In this document: piece after piece, positions 30,856 through 38,692 of the stretch
How positions within the stretch are numbered: position 1 is the first letter of the stretch
Layout of the letters: the number at the start of each line of letters is the position of its first letter
NCBI RefSeq assembly: GCF_020523925.1
Contig: NZ_JAJAPW010000001.1
Coordinates: forward strand, 124,001-188,000
Direction: 5' to 3'
DNA: 64,000 bases
Source: Neotamlana laminarinivorans
GTDB lineage: Bacteria > Bacteroidota > Bacteroidia > Flavobacteriales > Flavobacteriaceae
Made by a program: the position numbers and the translations under genes
The notes under the pieces: model-generated
Databases searched by the model: none
Told to the model about the DNA's origin: nothing
Seen by the model: the letters and a program-made list of their open reading frames with translations, nothing else

Positions 30856-32010
30856 ATGGAAGAAAACTTTAAAATGATAGCCAAAACCCTTTTTGGCTTC
30901 GAAGATATATTAGAAAACGAGCTTATACAGTTAGGCGCGCAAAACATAAACAAAGGTGTGCGAATGGTATCGTTTGTAGGCGATAAAGGCTTTATGTACA
31001 AGGCAAACTTAGCGTTGCGTACGGCTATAAAAATTTTAAAGCCTATACATTCGTTTAAAGTAAAAAACGAAAACGATTTATATAAAAACATTTACGCCAT
31101 GGATTGGAGCCAATACCTAAAATCCAACGGTACCTTGGCTGTAGATGCTACCATACACTCCGATTTGTTTTCGCATTCCCTATTTATAGCACAAAAAACA
31201 AAAGATGCTATTGTAGATAAGTTTCGTGAAACTACCGGCGAGCGCCCAAGTGTAGATTTAAAGTTTCCCGACGTTAAAATAAACGTACACATTAGTAAAA
31301 ACCACTGTAATATTTCGTTAGATACCTCTGGCGATTCTCTGCATAAACGCGGTTATAAAACCGCAACCAATATTGCGCCTATAAACGAAGTGTTGGCAGC
31401 AGGATTAATAATGCTATCTGGTTGGGATGGGCAAAGCGATTTTATGGACCCCATGTGTGGCTCGGGCACCATGCTAATAGAAGCGGCTATGATTGCCTGT
31501 AACATACCACCAAACTTAATGCGCAAAGAATTTGCTTTCGAGCGTTGGCCAAATTGGGATGTAGAATTATTTGAAAAAATTGAAGAATCGTTGCTTAAAA
31601 AAACACGCGATTTTCATCATAAAATAATAGGTTACGATAAAGCACCAAGTGCTGTAAAAAAGGCACAAATAAATGCAGAAAACGCCCAATTAGACGATTT
31701 TATTACCGTAAAACACGAAGATTTCTTTAAAACCCAAAAAGGCGGAAACGAAAAACTTCACATGGTGTTTAACCCGCCCTACGGCGAACGTTTAAATATT
31801 GATATGGAATTGTTTTACAAAAACATAGGCGATACCCTTAAACAAAGTTACCCAGGTACCGATGCATGGTTTATTACCAGTAATTTAAATGCTTTAAAAC
31901 ATGTTGGTTTGCGCCCTTCGAGAAAAATACAACTGTACAACGCTAAATTAGAATCGCGTTTGGTAAAATATGTAATGTACGAAGGCAGTAAGAAGGCTAA
32001 ATTTAATTAG
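30856..32010 (+). CDS. THUMP-domain class I SAM-dependent RNA methyltransferase (RlmL/Trm11-like)
   Basis: The 384-residue protein has an N-terminal ferredoxin-like/THUMP region (~1-155) and a methyltransferase domain with FMDPMCGSGTMLIEAAMIAC (~195-214) and the catalytic FNPPYGERL (~306-314). NPPY indicates base-amine methylation of rRNA or tRNA guanosine, as in RlmL (23S m2G2445). Its last 20 codons (31951-32010) recur twice downstream, so the gene end appears to be an integration site while the protein stays intact. Confidence 0.93.
   Translation: MEENFKMIAKTLFGFEDILENELIQLGAQNINKGVRMVSFVGDKGFMYKANLALRTAIKILKPIHSFKVKNENDLYKNIYAMDWSQYLKSNGTLAVDATIHSDLFSHSLFIAQKTKDAIVDKFRETTGERPSVDLKFPDVKINVHISKNHCNISLDTSGDSLHKRGYKTATNIAPINEVLAAGLIMLSGWDGQSDFMDPMCGSGTMLIEAAMIACNIPPNLMRKEFAFERWPNWDVELFEKIEESLLKKTRDFHHKIIGYDKAPSAVKKAQINAENAQLDDFITVKHEDFFKTQKGGNEKLHMVFNPPYGERLNIDMELFYKNIGDTLKQSYPGTDAWFITSNLNALKHVGLRPSRKIQLYNAKLESRLVKYVMYEGSKKAKFN
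31951..32010 (+). repeat. Methyltransferase 3'-end repeat, copy A (inside the gene)
   Basis: These 60 bases encode the last 19 residues (ESRLVKYVMYEGSKKAKFN) and the stop. Copies lie at 32986-33045 (54/60 identical) and 34290-34349 (50/60 identical). The copies keep the reading frame and stop codon although no gene precedes them. Confidence 0.9.
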
Positions 32011-32080
32011 TTGGTTTTTGGACTTTTGTTGCTTATCGGGCTTGACTATGAGTAGTTGCGTGTTTTGATACGGACTTTTG

Positions 32081-32120
32081 CAAGTACACAACAAGCTGAA
32101 AATTCCCTAGGAATTTTCAG
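32081..32120 (+). repeat. Post-tail repeat, copy A, with hairpin
   Basis: CAAGTACACA followed by an inverted repeat CTGAAAATTCC-CTA-GGAATTTTCAG (32096-32120) lies 71 bp after the methyltransferase stop. A related sequence of nearly the same length is at 33097-33135, in the same position relative to tail copy B. The hairpin may also act as the methyltransferase terminator, although no T-tract follows. Confidence 0.65.
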
Positions 32121-32197
32121 GATAAGACTGTAATAGCAATTGTTGGTAGTAGTAATTATTTTACAATTTCTGATTTTATCAAAAAAACCTCTTATAG

Positions 32198-32827
32198 TCA
32201 TTCTTTTATTTCAATTAAAGGATCTATGTCAAGTAGTTCAGGAAGGTCAGGTGGTTGAGCATAGCTTCCTTCTATTGATCCCATACATTCTTTGCCAGTT
32301 GTTTTGTCTATAAAGTATTTTCCAAAGGCTATTTCATTATCTATGTAAATACTATACATATTAGCATTCTCAATAATTTTATTATTGAATCCAAAGCGTG
32401 GTAATCCAAATGCTTTGATAACAAAATCAATTTTCTCTTGTTCTTCGATTGTTGGTAAGTAAAAACGATCTAATCCCCAAGTATCAAAAGGAAAAACATT
32501 CTGGCTGATTAAGTCAACTTCAAAGTCGTAAATTAAATTTTCATCCTTTTTGTCATAAGGGGTAAATCTGATTATTCGTCTGTAGTTAACGATTGTTTTT
32601 TTTGAATTTTCCCATGTTGTGATTTCATATAATAAAGGGTTAAATACAAAATCAGGATATTTGGAAGCAATAATTTTATTGGCTTGATTTATTAGTTCAT
32701 TTTTATTCAATTTAATTGTTTTTTTAATAGAGTCCTCTTTACTAATTATTTGGTCTATTGCATTTTTTTGAGCATAGCTTGATAAACTAAGAATAAGTAA
32801 TAATATAGATAGCCTTGTCATGTTCAT
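32198..32827 (-). CDS. Exported protein of unknown function (module 1)
   Basis: The 209-residue protein begins with a signal peptide (MTRLSILLLILSLSSYAQ after MN). The mature part is soluble and mixed alpha/beta; ITTWENSKKTIVNYRRIIRF and AFGKYFIDKTTGKECMGSIE are typical of an unassigned exported flavobacterial protein. I recognise no family. It is the only gene of the first repeat-delimited module: the methyltransferase tail lies on its 3' side and a ~100-bp repeat starts 14 bp upstream of its ATG. Confidence 0.7.
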   Translation of the reverse strand: MNMTRLSILLLILSLSSYAQKNAIDQIISKEDSIKKTIKLNKNELINQANKIIASKYPDFVFNPLLYEITTWENSKKTIVNYRRIIRFTPYDKKDENLIYDFEVDLISQNVFPFDTWGLDRFYLPTIEEQEKIDFVIKAFGLPRFGFNNKIIENANMYSIYIDNEIAFGKYFIDKTTGKECMGSIEGSYAQPPDLPELLDIDPLIEIKE

Positions 32828-32840
32828 AGCTTTAATTACT

Positions 32841-33045
32841 GCTAACTTTATTGATATAACACCTGTTATAATGATTTATATCAGACGATAAGCAAGTTCG
32901 CCTTTTTCCATTAAAAAGAAAATAGATATATACGTTTTTTTAGTTATTTGTTATTTAAAATAATAAAATAAACTAAGCGAAAACAGAATCTTGTTTAGTA
33001 AAATATGTAATGTACGAAGGTAGTAAGAAAGCTAAGTTTAATTAG
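32841..33045 (+). repeat. Composite module-boundary repeat 1 (leader repeat plus tail copy B)
   Basis: From GCTAAC at 32841 this repeat matches 34150-34349 and, for its first ~100 bp, 36202-36305. The most conserved block is GACGATAAGCAAGTTCGCCT (within 32883-32908). It ends in tail copy B (32986-33045), which differs from the real gene end by six bases, five of them synonymous. A perfect palindrome TATAACA-CC-TGTTATA (32855-32870) is present. It fills most of the 357-bp gene-free stretch 32828-33184. Confidence 0.88.
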
Positions 33046-33096
33046 TTGGGTTTGATCTCTGTTATTGTTGGTTGCTTGGTTTAACAATTAACTTTA

Positions 33097-33135
33097 CAAG
33101 TACACACCAAACTATAAATCCGCAAGGATTTTCAG
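33097..33135 (+). repeat. Post-tail repeat, copy B
   Basis: CAAGTACACA is followed by AAATCC-GCAA-GGATTT (a small hairpin) and TTTTCAG, matching 32081-32120 in order and length, 52 bp after the stop of tail copy B. This shows that the duplicated unit extended past the methyltransferase stop. Confidence 0.6.
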
Positions 33136-33184
33136 AATTAGTCGGGAACAAGCAATTAATTATACTCAATGTTGTATACCGTTT

Positions 33185-34123
33185 TTATTCACAATTTAGT
33201 ATTTGTGGAACATATTTTATTATTTCATCTGTAGTCGACAAGATGTTACTTGTTCGTCCAAGACCTAGAACTCTAGATGTGTTAAAAACTAAATCATCTG
33301 TTGTTATAAGTGGGTTTACCGAGCGAATAGATATAATTTGAGGTCTAATTTCAATATCATCATCATAAATTTTAGACTTGATAGTCGCCATTGCTTGCAT
33401 TGCACTTTGTATTGATGCTGAACTAATTTCTGATGGCATTGGTAGTAAAGTTGTTATTTCTCTTGATTCTATTCCTAAAACGTTAACACTCAAAGAACCA
33501 CTAACTTCGTTTCTACTCGCGGCAAAACCAATAGCAAATAAATCACCAAGATTGATTCCGCTCTTTTTAGTTTCTATTGATGCAACTATTCTCAATCCAA
33601 CACCAACTCTTGCATATGAATAAATACTCAGGTTTTCTAATTGGATATTATTTTTGGCGTAATTTAAAGTATCGACAACATTTATTGTTACAAACTTAAC
33701 ATAGTCCATTGTTACTTGATAGCTTGTGTTTTTTGCTGAAATTGCAGCAGCTCCTTTTAATGAAAGACCACCTTGTTTAGTGATTTCTGAAATTTGAATT
33801 TCGACAGTTTCATTAGGTAATAGGTCAACAATTTTTTTATTCGGGATATCAGAAAAATAGATATTTCTGTCTTCTCTTGAATAACAAGTGTCAGTTTTGA
33901 CTGCATAATTTTTGAGTTCTTTTTTCGAAACTCCAGACATTAATTTTTGGAAATATTCATTCGAGAATTTATAGTATGCTATTGGATAAACATAATTTAT
34001 TGGGTCAACAGGTCTAAACCCTACACTAGACATTAAATCGTCGGAAGGATTAACTTTTTCTTGTGCTTTGGTATTAGAATTAAATGCTACTAGAAGGATT
34101 AATAGAAAAATAGTTTTATTCAT
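33185..34123 (-). CDS. Exported protein of unknown function (module 2)
   Basis: The 312-residue protein has a signal peptide (MNKTIFLLILLVAFNSNTKA) and a soluble mature domain with beta-rich segments (YARVGVGLRIVASIETKKSG; LSVNVLGIESREITTLLPMP). A long N-terminal part carries YSREDRNIYFSDIPNKKI. I recognise no family. It is the only gene of the second repeat-delimited module; the boundary repeat starts 27 bp upstream of its ATG, as in modules 1 and 3. Confidence 0.7.
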   Translation of the reverse strand: MNKTIFLLILLVAFNSNTKAQEKVNPSDDLMSSVGFRPVDPINYVYPIAYYKFSNEYFQKLMSGVSKKELKNYAVKTDTCYSREDRNIYFSDIPNKKIVDLLPNETVEIQISEITKQGGLSLKGAAAISAKNTSYQVTMDYVKFVTINVVDTLNYAKNNIQLENLSIYSYARVGVGLRIVASIETKKSGINLGDLFAIGFAASRNEVSGSLSVNVLGIESREITTLLPMPSEISSASIQSAMQAMATIKSKIYDDDIEIRPQIISIRSVNPLITTDDLVFNTSRVLGLGRTSNILSTTDEIIKYVPQILNCE

Positions 34124-34149
34124 ATTGTTGGTTTTTTAAATGGTGCATA

Positions 34150-34349
34150 GCTATATTAATATAACGTCCGTTTTAGTGACTTATATTAGACGATAAGCAA
34201 GTTCGCCTTTTTCTGTTAAAAAGTAAATAGGTATATATACTTATTTTTTAGTGATTTGTTATTAGAATAGAACAAACCACGCGAAAATAGAATTTTGTTT
34301 GGTAAAATATGTAATCTATAAAGGTAGTAAGAAAGCAAAGTTTAATTAG
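34150..34349 (+). repeat. Composite module-boundary repeat 2 (leader repeat plus tail copy C)
   Basis: This matches repeat 1 over its whole length, including the 26-bp block 34188-34213 identical to 32883-32908, and ends in tail copy C (34290-34349). Copy C keeps the frame and the stop codon but encodes three further amino-acid changes relative to copy B (S to F, M to I, E to K), so it is the most diverged. Confidence 0.87.
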
Positions 34350-34377
34350 GATTAGTTTGTGTTGCTTATAGGTTTTG

Positions 34378-35112
34378 TTATGCGTATAGTCTTGTTTTTA
34401 ATTTTTCTATTATTGAATTTATTGAATCACTTCGGTGCATTTTATAACAATGCTCTAGAAGGGACTTTTTGTTATGTTTTACGTCCCTATTTTTTGCACT
34501 CAAAAATCTAATTAATAAAGCGAAAAGAGATTTGCCTCTAATTAGTACATCATACTCATTTTGCAAATACTCGATTGTCTCTTCACTTGGACTTTCAAAG
34601 TTGATTTCATTTAAAAAATCCTGCTTAAGATTTTGAGCGTCACATAGAACCTGGTTTGGGTGATTGGCGAAGTTGTAAATTAACTTTTTCTGAAATTGTT
34701 CAATTTCAAATGCGTAATATGTTATAAAATTTCTAATAGCTTTTCTAAACTTTACATTTTCATTTATATCAAGTAATTGTTCTATTTTCTGTCCTTGATA
34801 TAAGTCATTTTCTATCGAATAACCTTTTGTCCAAATAATTTCTTCAAGTTCCAAAGGTGTTTCTTCATAAACAAAAGAATCTTTATCTGCTATGAATACA
34901 GTTTTAATGTGATTAAATTCATCTCTTCTTTCAAAAACCTTTAATAGTCTGTCTCTTCCGCCACAAGACAAAAAATTGGCGTTTTGAATTCCAATTTCTT
35001 CTTCAATCCATCTGTAAATTAGCATGTCGTCTTTACCTTCAACCAATACAGTTGTTAGAGAAGAGCGTTTCAATGTCTCAACGATTTCGTCTTCAGTTAA
35101 ATGTAAATTCAT
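34378..35112 (-). CDS. DUF4435/TOPRIM-like protein (AriB-like, candidate PARIS effector)
   Basis: The 244-residue protein begins SSLTTVLVEGKDDMLIYRWI (Glu25) followed by VFIADKDSF (Asp76, Asp78), the glutamate and DxD of a TOPRIM nuclease core as in DUF4435. In PARIS anti-phage systems a DUF4435 protein (AriB) is released by an ABC-type ATPase (AriA) on infection and cleaves host tRNA. The gene follows the ATPase gene by 2 bp in the same order as ariA-ariB. The similarity is at motif and architecture level, so a related two-gene system (OLD/Gabija-like) remains possible. Confidence 0.8.
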   Translation of the reverse strand: MNLHLTEDEIVETLKRSSLTTVLVEGKDDMLIYRWIEEEIGIQNANFLSCGGRDRLLKVFERRDEFNHIKTVFIADKDSFVYEETPLELEEIIWTKGYSIENDLYQGQKIEQLLDINENVKFRKAIRNFITYYAFEIEQFQKKLIYNFANHPNQVLCDAQNLKQDFLNEINFESPSEETIEYLQNEYDVLIRGKSLFALLIRFLSAKNRDVKHNKKSLLEHCYKMHRSDSINSIIEKLKTRLYA

Positions 35113-35114
35113 CC

Positions 35115-36176
35115 TTATTGACCTTTATCGTTAGACAGTATTATTTCCTTGTCTGAATATTTTGAATATATAAAAGGACTGTGAGTTGCCATGAAGAATT
35201 GATTACTATTCCCTTGATTTAGAAGGGTAGGGACTAATGTCCTTTGCCAATCAGGGTGTAGGCTTAATTCTGGTTCATCAATAAATATAGTGCTGTTCTT
35301 TGTGAAGATATTATAGCAAATAAAACTTAACATTTGTTTTTCCCCTGCTGATAGTTTTTCTGAAGCCACAGAGTCACTTACATCCCCAAATGTTAAATTA
35401 CTTAAATGAATTCCTTTATGCTGGAAAATAGTTGTGATTAAATCAGATAAAATTGTGAATGGCTTAAACAATGAGTTCCTTTCATTTTCCATTCCTTCAA
35501 TATCATTTTGAATATCGTTTAATATAGAGGTTTCATCCTTTGTTCTATTTTTTATTTTGGCAATAATTGAATCGGATTTCTCTTTTTGCATTTTATTGAT
35601 TTTGCTGTTGATTTCAGCATATTCTTTTGTCAAGAGTGAAACGATATCGTCAGTTGAGATTGAAGCTACGAATTTCTGATTAAAACTAGATAGTCTTTCC
35701 GAAAACTCATTCATTGCATCTTTCAATGAGTCGGAATGAAACCGAGGGTCATGTCTGTCCATTGAAAAACCACCTTCAATTCTTCTAAAAGTGGGAAAGA
35801 ATACAGTTGGAATGCTCTTATTCTGTATTTCATGAAACCTCTTTTGATAGCGAGGGTGCATTCTAAACTCAAAATTTCTTAAGTCCTGTTGACTTAATGA
35901 CCAAGTCGGGTCATTATTGAAGTTAACTGAGATTTTTTCTGAATTTGAATCTTGTTTAATAGAGATTCTAAATTCAGAAGTTGTTAATTCAGCATATTCG
36001 AAAACAATTTCTCTTATCAAACTCACAATTCTCCCTGAATTTAGAAACCAAATTAGTTTCAATATAGTAGTTTTACTTGAACCATTTTTCCCTGTTAGTA
36101 AATTTAAATCTGGTTCAAACGAGAGGTCTAAGTTTGTTTTATTATTTAATTTCTTCACAATTAGTCTTTCAATCAT
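35115..36176 (-). CDS. ABC/SMC-type AAA ATPase (AriA-like, candidate PARIS sensor)
   Basis: The 353-residue protein has an ABC-ATPase head: Walker A LTGKNGSSKTT (~27-37), a coiled-coil insertion (~185-240), signature KLSAGEKQML (~274-283), Walker B STIFIDEPELSLHPDW (~295-310) and H-loop MATHSP. The Walker A glycine before the lysine is serine (GSSKT, not GSGKT), which is unusual. Together with the downstream DUF4435 gene it resembles AriA of PARIS. The boundary repeat starts 26 bp upstream of the ATG. Confidence 0.83.
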   Translation of the reverse strand: MIERLIVKKLNNKTNLDLSFEPDLNLLTGKNGSSKTTILKLIWFLNSGRIVSLIREIVFEYAELTTSEFRISIKQDSNSEKISVNFNNDPTWSLSQQDLRNFEFRMHPRYQKRFHEIQNKSIPTVFFPTFRRIEGGFSMDRHDPRFHSDSLKDAMNEFSERLSSFNQKFVASISTDDIVSLLTKEYAEINSKINKMQKEKSDSIIAKIKNRTKDETSILNDIQNDIEGMENERNSLFKPFTILSDLITTIFQHKGIHLSNLTFGDVSDSVASEKLSAGEKQMLSFICYNIFTKNSTIFIDEPELSLHPDWQRTLVPTLLNQGNSNQFFMATHSPFIYSKYSDKEIILSNDKGQ

Positions 36177-36201
36177 AATTTTTCGTTGTTTTCTGCTTAC
36201 G

Positions 36202-36305
36202 TCTAACTTTATTGATATAAATTCCGTTTTAATGACTTATATCAAGCGCTAAGCAATTTCGAGTTTTTCTGTTAAAAAGTAAATACGTAGTTATACTTAT
36301 TTTTA
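36202..36305 (+). repeat. Module-boundary leader repeat 3 (truncated, no tail copy)
   Basis: TCTAACTTTATTGATATAAA begins a ~100-bp match to the first half of repeats 1 and 2 (Rep3 contains CTTATATCAAGCGCTAAGCA). The match ends near 36305 and no methyltransferase tail follows; the next gene starts its 3' end 17 bp later. It marks the right end of the accessory stretch. Confidence 0.8.
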
Positions 36306-36321: not shown

Positions 36322-37230
36322 TTAAAAAGCTTCATTAATTAAAGCATTATTTGCAGCAGCACCTGCAATAGTTCCTGTAGATACGGCATAAGATACGGCT
36401 CGAAATGGGCTAGTATTATCTCCGCAGGCATAAATACCAGCAATGGTGGTTTGTTGCATAGTATCTACTTTTATAAAATTTTGTTCTGTAAGCTCGCAAC
36501 CTAATAGTTTTGGTAAGTTGCAATGTTGCTCAACATTTGGTTTTGCATAAATGGCTTTTACAGAAAAAGCGCTTTCATTATTAAAAATAATAGCTTGGAG
36601 TTGCCCATTTTTATGTTGTAAATGGCTTATTTTATTTTCTATAACTTTTATGTTATGCTTTGCTATTTTTTGGTTTTGTTCGTTGGTTAAAGTGGAGGTG
36701 CCGTTGGTAAAAATGGTTAATTTTTTGGTCCAGTTTGTAATAAGTTGTGCATAGTGAAATGCCATATCTCCGTTGGCTAAAATACCTGTGGCTTCATGTT
36801 TTACTTCGTAACCATGGCAATATGGGCAATGTATTACTGTTTTTCCCCAGCATTTTGAAAACCCAGGAATGTTTGGCATAATATCTTTTAAACCTGTAGC
36901 AAATATTAGTTTTTTTGCTGTAAAGGCATCGTTGTTTTGTGTAATTATTTCAAAACCTTCTTGGTTTTGTTTGGCTTTTATAGCTAAACCATCGTAAAAT
37001 TTTATTGTTTTGTAAACACTAACTTGCTGTTTGGCAACGGTTGTAATTTCTAGAGGTGTTTTACCATCTTGAGTAATAAAATTATGCGAGTGTGGTGTAG
37101 CTTTATTACATGGGTTTTGGTTGTCTATTACTAAAACACGTCTTAAAGCTCTACCTAAAGCCATTGCAGCAGATAGGCCTGCGAAGCTTCCGCCAATAAT
37201 TATAATTTCAAATTTTTTTATGTGTGCCAT
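36322..37230 (-). CDS. Thioredoxin-reductase-like FAD/NAD(P) oxidoreductase
   Basis: The 302-residue protein has an FAD-binding N-terminus GGSFAGLSAAMALGRA (~13-28), the redox-active CPYCHGYEV (~134-142) in the NAD(P)-binding half and a C-terminal GIYACGDNTSPFRAVSYAVS FAD motif. It resembles TrxB in size and layout, but its partner is not encoded nearby. It is cytoplasmic and probably monocistronic. Confidence 0.87.
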   Translation of the reverse strand: MAHIKKFEIIIIGGSFAGLSAAMALGRALRRVLVIDNQNPCNKATPHSHNFITQDGKTPLEITTVAKQQVSVYKTIKFYDGLAIKAKQNQEGFEIITQNNDAFTAKKLIFATGLKDIMPNIPGFSKCWGKTVIHCPYCHGYEVKHEATGILANGDMAFHYAQLITNWTKKLTIFTNGTSTLTNEQNQKIAKHNIKVIENKISHLQHKNGQLQAIIFNNESAFSVKAIYAKPNVEQHCNLPKLLGCELTEQNFIKVDTMQQTTIAGIYACGDNTSPFRAVSYAVSTGTIAGAAANNALINEAF

Positions 37231-37296
37231 AGCTTTATTTTTATTACGATATTTTAAACATTATTTAATTATGTTTAAAAGTAATAATTGTATTAA

Positions 37297-37327
37297 AAAA
37301 AACGAGTAACTTTTCGTTACTCGTTTT
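37297..37327 (-). terminator. Intrinsic terminator of the DUF3500 gene
   Basis: AACGAGTAAC (37301-37310) and GTTACTCGTT (37316-37325) form a 10-bp perfect stem with a 5-base loop. On the minus strand it is followed by a run of eight T. It lies ~50 bp after the DUF3500 stop. Confidence 0.85.
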
Positions 37328-37375
37328 ACAATTCAAACAAAACAAATTTTAAAAAATTTGTAAAAAAACATGAAT

Positions 37376-38692
37376 TTAACCATGATTGTGAGAGTAATCG
37401 TGGTTATGATGCTCAGGTATTAAGCCTTCAACTGTGTAATCAAATTTAATAGTACTCAGGTTATGGTGATCTGCCAATGCATAATGTTCTAGCAATGTTC
37501 TAGGGCCACCATTATTAATTATTTGTGCAAATATGCCGTAATCTCCACCATTATCTGTGGTTGGGTTGTTAGGTATTCTGGTTATGGCATGCACATGGTT
37601 ATAATCTGCAATAGTATTTTCGTTGGCACCAGTAACATCTTCGGTGTTAAATTCTGCCCATAAATAAGGGTTGTAAACACGGTAATAAAATTGCGATGTT
37701 GTAGATGGTGCTTCGTCGTAAACAAAAGCAAAATAGGTATCATCTAAATTTGCCGAAATATCTGTCCACCAATCATCTGCAAAGGTATCGGTAAGGTTGT
37801 AAACATGTTCTTTCATTAAGGCAATTACATTGGCTTGAGTATCAGTAGACATATCTGAATATTTTAAACCTGTTGTAAAGCCAGAATAATCGTAAGTACC
37901 ACGGTATGGGTCTGGATCGCCAGACATATCTGCAGCGCCAACTCTTAAATCTCTGTCGGTTGTGCTTATTAATGCCGAAGAAAGTTCGGTATCTGTCATG
38001 CCGCTGTAAAGGGCAATAGCTAAAGCTTTTTCGTTTTCAAAAATGTTGTAATCAATACCATTGTAGGTTTCTTCGGCAGGCTCGCCGCCCATAAAAGCAG
38101 GAACCATAGATACGTTATCGCCGTGTACTAAAAAGTTTATAGCACAATGGTGGCCATCTAATTGAAATCCCCAAGAACCACTAGTTTCTGGATCGCCAAA
38201 CATATCGATAGAGTAGTAGCCTGGAGACCAAGCATCCATATTACTGCTATCTTCTAGCCAACCTTCTGCTAATTCTGTAATTTCGTATACTTTTTCGTAA
38301 CCTTCTGCACTTAAAAATAACTGCAGCATTTCTTTAAAAGCTGTAAGTTGTGCATCGGTTAAATCGTTGTAAATAATACCATCTCTGTTTGTACCGCTGG
38401 TATTTGGTGTGTTGTGCCAAAGGTAGAAGCGCTCGTTGTCTAAACAATTATCTGCTTCATCTAAAAGTGTAGAAGATAATGAGGCTCTAAAATTAACCAT
38501 GGCTTCTCGCATGGCTTCAATTTCGGTGTCTGTACTTTGGTCTACTTCACCATCGGTTTCACATGCTGTAGTGGTGTCATCATCATCGTCATCGTCTGTT
38601 GATGAGCCACTATCGTCACTTCCGCAGGCTACAAATAAGCCTAGAAATATCATTAATAAAAATGATTTTATCGTTCTTAAATTTAAATGCAT
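37376..38692 (-). CDS. DUF3500-domain lipoprotein
   Basis: The 438-residue protein has an SPII signal with lipobox LFVACG (Cys23) and an acidic linker (STDDDDDDDTTTACETDG). The large mature domain matches DUF3500: NERFYLWHNTPNTSGTNRDG, GSWGFQLDGHHCAINFLVHG and RIPNNPTTDNGGDYGIFAQI. The C-terminus ends in a His-rich tail (EHHNHDYSHNHG). The function is unknown; such proteins are often predicted to be exported to the cell surface. It lies next to a sensor/regulator pair on the same strand, with 76 bp between. Confidence 0.82.
   Translation of the reverse strand: MHLNLRTIKSFLLMIFLGLFVACGSDDSGSSTDDDDDDDTTTACETDGEVDQSTDTEIEAMREAMVNFRASLSSTLLDEADNCLDNERFYLWHNTPNTSGTNRDGIIYNDLTDAQLTAFKEMLQLFLSAEGYEKVYEITELAEGWLEDSSNMDAWSPGYYSIDMFGDPETSGSWGFQLDGHHCAINFLVHGDNVSMVPAFMGGEPAEETYNGIDYNIFENEKALAIALYSGMTDTELSSALISTTDRDLRVGAADMSGDPDPYRGTYDYSGFTTGLKYSDMSTDTQANVIALMKEHVYNLTDTFADDWWTDISANLDDTYFAFVYDEAPSTTSQFYYRVYNPYLWAEFNTEDVTGANENTIADYNHVHAITRIPNNPTTDNGGDYGIFAQIINNGGPRTLLEHYALADHHNLSTIKFDYTVEGLIPEHHNHDYSHNHG

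Follow-up and report, generated by a model that had tools for sequence, protein, structure and literature searches.

Directly behind a gene for a THUMP/UPF0020 RNA methyltransferase in Neotamlana laminarinivorans lies a short array of repeats enclosing three minus-strand gene modules (Table 1). The array belongs to a window of 64,000 nucleotides, the whole stretch of DNA analysed here, which is part of contig C37 of a 3.6-Mb draft genome; coordinates are positions in that window. The last 60 bp of the methyltransferase gene (native tail T0) recur twice downstream (T1 and T2) with frame and stop kept, and a 101-nucleotide repeat, the leader, begins at 32843, 34148 and 36204. A note made earlier from the letters alone, hereafter the original prediction, had described the gene end as a hotspot in which elements bringing their own copy of that end inserted and rebuilt it. 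Integrons are gene-capture systems known for spreading antibiotic resistance, and our comparisons suggest that the locus is likely a row of docking slots for integron-type cassettes, part of a flavobacterial integron-like system.

Table 1. Features of the methyltransferase locus in window coordinates (E, expectation value; R2, attC covariance model).
Feature	Position	Strand	Support or remark
THUMP/UPF0020 RNA methyltransferase gene	30856..32010	+	Pfam UPF0020 2.7e-39, THUMP 5.6e-24
Native tail T0 (tail A), last 60 bp of the gene, bordering the docking site	31951-32010	+	
Methyltransferase-side arm GCTTAT	32031..32036	.	predicted attC join between 32036 and 32037
Putative attC hairpin, cassette 1	32030..32162	-	R2 49.8 bits, E 4.3e-11; model match takes in the arm
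Cassette 1 gene, 209 amino acids	32198..32827	-	no family match
Putative docking (leader) hairpin 1	32841..32902	-	repeat continues towards tail copy
Tail copy T1 (tail B)	32986..33045	+	no gene in front
Putative attC hairpin, cassette 2, partial	33063..33164	-	R2 59.7 bits, E 1e-13; model positions 15-118 of 135
Cassette 2 gene, 312 amino acids	33185..34123	-	no family match above cut-off
Putative docking (leader) hairpin 2	34145..34207	-	
Tail copy T2 (tail C)	34290..34349	+	GCTTAT arm after it at 34364
Module 3 gene b, AriB-like TOPRIM-type	34378..35112	-	PADLOC AriB 1.7e-11
Module 3 gene a, AriA/PtuA-like AAA ATPase	35115..36176	-	PADLOC PtuA 1.9e-24, AriA 2.7e-23
Putative docking (leader) hairpin 3	36201..36263	-	no tail copy behind; repeat continues to 36304

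The repeats had been described correctly and are beyond chance. Alignment bore out both the tails, which agree at 54/60 (T0-T1), 50/60 (T0-T2) and 54/60 (T1-T2) positions, or 83-90%, and the repeated post-tail sequence (32055-32116 versus 33071-33132, 71% identical). The outer leader copies are 80% and 84% identical to the middle one, and a 24-base leader core has two exact copies in the window versus 0 matches in 100 shuffles. The earlier description needs one amendment: a leader precedes T1 and T2 but not the native tail, and its third copy (36204-36304) stands alone, with no tail behind it. A search of the same genome with leader plus tail found nothing outside the locus at E <=0.001; at E up to 1 it gave six extra matches of 20-36 bases each.

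The post-tail repeats are best read as diverged hairpins of the attC type, the recombination site of integron cassettes, from a family that fills arrays elsewhere in the same genome. The stretch behind a tail copy of Tamlana sedimentorum, used as query, gave 40 matches in this genome, where 40 of 97 candidates had been scored; many lie in rows on contigs C29, C30, C33, C11 and other short contigs. A profile search over eight contig stretches gave 78 attC matches, of which 77 agree in orientation with the others on their stretch. One or a few genes lie between successive copies, and nearly all longer reading frames run in the same direction. The aligned copies are attC-like, about 125 nucleotides long, and read AAC-ACCGTATA ... 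TATAC-AAACAC-GTT. Among 44 sites chosen out of the 78 matches (alignment A1), AAC and GTT are invariant (44/44), whereas the bases behind them vary, unlike the integron core GTTRRRY and RYYYAAC. The window itself contains two matches to the attC model at the locus and a third elsewhere at chance level (E 0.58).

Integron cassettes start with bases complementary to the R'' box in the attC that they carry. In 64 array cassettes with both ends read, the 7 nucleotides behind GTT complement the 7 before AACG at 359 of 448 positions, a count that retains some borders set by the script on the wrong triplet; dealing the ends among cassettes gave a mean of 159 (standard deviation 12, maximum 206 in 5000 shuffles). 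Furthermore, the 16 named pairs of the attC stem are paired in 95.9% of cells, seven of them with changes on both sides, and their covariation is 0.290 versus 0.083 in shuffled and at most 0.062 in slid controls. RNAalifold, run alone on the alignment, predicted 10 pairs, four with changes on both sides. One short cassette, with 315-332 bases between attC sites and ends ACAAAAT and TTTTTGT, makes up 12 of the 64 cassettes; it was located in L134, L135, L136 and L141 (contigs C29, C11, C30 and C31), and most copies lack a frame of 60 codons. Gene-less cassettes with promoters have been described in Vibrio.

The leader reads as a second, shorter hairpin with arms GCTTATC...GATAAGC that follows closely on the methyltransferase stop. 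Modules of the Tamlana arrays have GCTTAT on the gene side and C-TTTATTGATATAACG on the leader side, or local variants of these; since the methyltransferase-side arm bounds them at one end and the leader hairpin at the other, the crossover is placed at the hairpin and not in the tail. Our comparison covered three further genomes of the genus, T. sedimentorum and T. sargassicola (methyltransferase protein 99% identical to the window copy) and T. nanhaiensis (92%), plus 80 related methyltransferase loci scanned at E 0.05 with a leader model (R1) and the attC model. A leader lies within 3.2 kb behind the stop in 14 of the 80, and an attC within 2 kb in 10. With the join marked by a slash, the nine attC-bearing loci listed read CTTAT/CG (five), CTTAT/TG (one), TTTAA/CG (two, L053 and L040) or CTAA/CG (one, L081). 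L053 and L040 share the hairpin core GTTAAACG, which matches the arm rule, and have different neighbouring genes. The identical CTTAT/CG join at the occupied sites L049, L033, L027, L072 and L055 underlies the arm assigned in the window. By eye, cassette ends clearly match in four of the nine loci (L053, L040, L049 and L027). At a further locus, the attC match L096:11160-11257 lies 2 nucleotides downstream of the methyltransferase stop; its left end reads TTAACG, and the leader model has no match there.

Empty sites were found in two Hyunsoonleella species (L036, L093), where the hairpin stands undivided right behind the methyltransferase stop; what the occupied sites predict as the join is thus present there in its empty form. 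In L093 the arms are perfect (CGCTTATCG...CGATAAGCG), and in L036 the hairpin reads GGCTTGT/CTTTAATGATATACG, starting at the same C as the leaders of occupied sites. An Algibacter and two sister Tamlana species have the site at the same gene occupied, with other cargo. The original prediction had proposed looking for one-tail empty sites and for the leader beside unrelated genes; L036 and L093 supply the former, and leader-like sites with a cassette at other genes supply the latter. Its view of the gene's 3' end as a hotspot likewise stands, since sister species with a 99% identical methyltransferase carry other modules.

It had also suggested searching for a recombinase tied to the repeat. 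None of the four window module genes has a recombinase family match, and the candidate lies on another contig, C11, where a gene for a 393-amino-acid tyrosine recombinase stands at an array edge, adjoining dnaG- and nadE-like genes (recognised by eye). A single pattern finds ATATAACNAGTT or a close variant downstream of this gene in 28 of 30 loci, and the other two carry GTATAACAAGTT there (by eye); many loci have a start codon within some tens of bases. This conserved sequence would act as the attI site. The recombinase has relatives at E <1e-60 in 74 of the 149 Flavobacteriaceae genera sampled, and each of the other three Tamlana genomes encodes one (78-79% identity). Among the matches listed, all 17 genomes with an attC within 100 kb of the recombinase (G009, G015, G017, G027, G035, G041, G052, G066, G071, G087, G090, G096, G103, G104, G111, G116 and G124) have it on the strand of the recombinase gene and 3' of that gene, over up to about 70 kb.

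By sequence and fold, the recombinase is nearest to XerA and IntI4. XerA aligns through, whereas profile positions 276-297 span IntI4 residues 180-244 (2a3v) with 43 residues fewer, a missing stretch that we take to be the IntI-specific domain. The proteins carry 80 extra N-terminal residues (L142 1-80) that make up a conserved beta-beta-alpha-beta-beta-alpha domain with the pattern F.Y ... WS.T...WY. HARP is the substrate-recognition domain of SMARCAL1; its Pfam model matches the N-terminal domain in one of 24 members (6.3e-5), and Foldseek found nothing for this domain below E 0.1 (XPB II 0.13/0.16, SMARCAL1 HARP 0.52/0.87). The domain is possibly HARP-like, which we offer as a lead only. 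Of the 30 open recombinase frames found, 25 entered alignment A3; alignment A4 held 24.

Cargo at the methyltransferase site differs between close relatives. The first slot of T. sedimentorum (L018) holds a DRT3 pair (Drt3b 6e-201, Drt3a 3e-105), the array region of T. sargassicola (L019) holds two acyltransferases, ParDE and a methyltransferase, and by eye no module gene looked common to the three Tamlana species. Three leaders were counted in the window, against four to six in what was read of two sister species. Like PARIS (AriA/AriB), module 3 pairs an ATPase and a TOPRIM-type gene side by side; unlike PARIS, its ATPase scores slightly higher with PtuA models. Its gene b also has a Pfam OLD-like TOPRIM match at 0.0066, under the cut-off of that model. 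The docked cargo apparently includes anti-phage defences. In an Algibacter, a docked cassette near the methyltransferase (L045:6683-7495) carries two small ParE-type toxin/antitoxin-like genes, named by eye. To the right of the array (window 36322-38692), the flank differs among the Tamlana species compared (L018/L098, L019 and L020), where an oxidoreductase is present, is absent, or other genes stand; rearrangement has therefore reached the flank as well.

In the system that we propose, a tyrosine recombinase gene, the attI-like sequence just behind it and long attC cassette arrays would form the core, and the recombinase would act at the slots in trans. A cassette would enter the hairpin arm precisely, giving the order methyltransferase-GCTTAT/CG-attC-gene (minus strand)-NNNNAA/C-leader hairpin; the attC probably acts as a folded single strand, and the leader may itself be recombined as a hairpin. 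In the Tamlana lineage, the unit of tail and leader would have multiplied in tandem, by tandem duplication or by homologous recombination between tails, thereby creating several slots side by side, each with its own cassette. The elements that sequence comparison shows are the matching cassette ends and attC pairing in the arrays, the insertion site, the empty and occupied sites, the turnover of cargo, and the recombinase with its attI-like sequence at an array edge.

The tail copies bear on how the slots multiplied. The aligned Tamlana units run T0-attC-gene-leader-T1-attC-gene-leader and so on; every tail copy in them has a leader in front with the same junction, and some leaders have no tail behind. 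Complete units of tail and leader are confined to this locus in four genomes, T. nanhaiensis being without any. Five of the six differences between T0 and T1 are synonymous, as had been counted, and T0 and T2 differ at ten bases in nine codons, five of the nine synonymous. What had been suggested from this excess, that T1 evolved at the end of a working gene elsewhere, is not supported: a non-native Arg-to-Cys change recurs in seven of ten array tails, and premature stops interrupt two (Arg is kept in one tail, and one is out of register). A pooled synonymous excess was considered and rejected: it amounted to 32 of 102 changes versus 18% expected, or 26 of 59 without the out-of-register L019_6802, which supplied six synonymous and 37 other changes. 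Since tail changes are shared by descent, no inference is drawn from its p-value. The tail copies are mostly one family of non-coding repeats, and tandem duplication of the tail-to-leader segment, which the original prediction had itself listed among the outcomes that would refute it, is most simply their source.

Alternatively, elements with their own gene-end copy may have been inserted serially by a trans-acting integrase, of the phage or integrative and conjugative element type, with crossover in the methyltransferase tail. We regard this as unlikely for the locus as a whole, although it would account for the tails that flank modules as direct repeats and for an excess of tail duplication at this gene: within 2.5 kb, a tail copy follows 6 of 76 methyltransferase ends versus 9 of 824 other gene ends (Fisher p 8e-4, about 7x; 5/75 and p 0.004 without the sister array L019; loci with <2.5 kb behind the gene end, L043 among them, were skipped). 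Five loci of other genera also have tail copies (L030, L040 (weak), L043, L075 and L084), and in L075 the native tail has another flank and is followed at 1.8 kb by a displaced tail with GCTTATCG and an attC. However, module ends fall at the leader hairpin and the attC, outside the tail; most array tails have one Arg-to-Cys change in common; and tblastn with four recombinases from L099-L103 (the L101 query was a neighbouring ankyrin-type frame) found matches in only 3 of the 80 related loci, 7-9 kb behind the stop in L052 and L024 and upstream of the gene in L036. The idea of elements that bring and rebuild the gene end thus gives way, for the window modules, to attC cassettes with crossover at a hairpin. 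With a displaced tail beside a docking site in L075, and gene-end duplication elsewhere, it may nevertheless hold for some events.

A still less probable explanation invokes tandem duplication and unequal homologous recombination of tail, leader and module together, with no site-specific recombination, the modules having diverged or been replaced afterwards. The tail-leader junctions are indeed homologous in the ten units aligned (G000, G002 and G003), and the confinement of complete units to one locus is consistent with such a history. Nonetheless, it leaves unexplained the unrelated genes at hairpin and attC borders and the matching ends in the arrays and in part of the slots, as well as the single occupied sites at other genes and the empty sites. 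Duplication is probably right for the multiplication of slots and wrong for the cargo. It is very improbable that these are ordinary genes for which the leader merely supplies a common promoter or 5' untranslated region and the post-tail repeat a common terminator: a leader does lie upstream of each minus-strand module, a post-tail repeat downstream of two, and many attC sites contain a terminator-like GAAAATCC-GGATTTTC hairpin, but the genes are unrelated, no TAnnTTTG box (the Bacteroidetes -7 box) lies within 300 nucleotides upstream of the three window modules, and end matching and the attI-like sequence go unexplained.

Several observations weigh against the docking-slot interpretation. 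In slot 3, the attC model detects no site behind the T2 arm. Among 15 methyltransferase slots, those of the three Tamlana species and three others, ends match at 10 of 11 positions in four, at nine in three and at six to eight in the other eight, where about 7.4 of 11 is expected by chance from other modules' ends (L018_7275 and L033 were examined over shorter stretches); window slot 1 matches at 9/11, and slots 2 and 3 belong to the six-to-eight group. The leader stem is less well supported than that of attC: its named pairs are 82.6% paired, with covariation of 0.211 versus 0.128 shuffled and up to 0.097 slid, 13 of its 23 sequences come from Tamlana (L049 was omitted because its hairpin is interrupted), and RNAalifold found nothing paired in the leader alignment. 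The T. nanhaiensis methyltransferase locus is without tail copies and without a leader, and the tail copies at L030, L040, L043 and L084 have no match to either model alongside; another process therefore duplicates the methyltransferase gene end. The recombinase family lacks the IntI-specific domain, and with TIGR02249 the C11 protein reaches 198.3 bits, short of the 265 set as the curated integron-integrase cut-off. Finally, of 75 family genomes that have no recombinase match at 1e-60, 60 do have attC matches, which speaks against a strict link to this recombinase. A fold common to leader, tail and post-tail sequence was considered separately and rejected, six composites folded singly having no structure visibly in common.

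The candidate attC family is widely distributed. Of 149 Flavobacteriaceae genera sampled, 133 have matches at E <1e-3; a survey of 118 genomes across the phylum found them at 1e-5 in 33 (nine from the family itself and 24 others). At most 22 candidates per genome were scored in the family survey and 28 in the phylum survey, so per-genome attC counts are lower bounds. Nearly all genomes with a recombinase match at 1e-60 also have attC matches (73/74); where such a match is absent, the work may fall to more distant recombinases, or cassettes may persist after their loss. We lean, with some reserve, towards a broader picture in which a cassette system widespread in Flavobacteriaceae uses XerA-like recombinases without the IntI domain, their HARP-like N-terminus perhaps reading folded DNA. 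It would stockpile dozens of genes or more, send single cassettes, including anti-phage systems, to docking hairpins behind core genes, and have its slots multiplied along with the end of the host gene.

If this is true, large gene-capture arrays without the IntI domain have been overlooked in Bacteroidota, and recognition of folded attC sites could be compared between two engines. Conserved docking hairpins downstream of core genes would reveal the way in which individual cassettes, including whole defence systems, settle outside the array, and the empty or occupied state of these hairpins could be traced strain by strain. In the IntegronFinder 2.0 paper (PMC9024848), an earlier study by its authors is said to have found only cassette-less integrases in Bacteroidetes, and one complete integron, in Salinibacter ruber, is added besides those of Chlorobi and Ignavibacteriae. 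A 2021 review counts Bacteroidota among the phyla with integrons, and a 2008 survey lists the Bacteroidetes/Chlorobi group. A paper on archaeal integrons (PMC9668308) treats the IntI-specific domain as a defining trait, necessary for recombination and required by the software. Our literature search, with subscription papers mostly outside its scope, found no account of flavobacterial integron arrays, and novelty is unproven.

Compared with integrative elements that rebuild a gene's 3' end, the locus shares the gene-end copies flanking its modules; it differs in that no integrase was found in the window modules and the crossover maps outside the tail. The closest likeness is to sedentary chromosomal integrons, with which the flavobacterial system shares a tyrosine recombinase beside an attI-like site, a long array of mostly one-gene cassettes, and attC-type imperfect inverted repeats with a conserved stem, a G/TT border and complementarity between the attC and the cassette's 5' end. 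It differs from them in its XerA-like recombinase, which has an extra N-terminal domain and lacks the IntI-specific one, in array genes that point the same way as the recombinase gene, in the bases behind GTT, which are not strictly RRRY, and in solitary docking hairpins elsewhere in the chromosome. Secondary (attG) sites follow a GWT rule, and the docking sites share with them a GAT-type target core. Cassettes away from an integrase are likewise a feature of CALINs (clusters of attC sites lacking integrase, as described in PMC9024848). Unlike in CALINs and attG sites, the target here is itself an attC-like hairpin. Several genera have it at the same gene, and Tamlana carries tandem repeats of it along with the methyltransferase tail.

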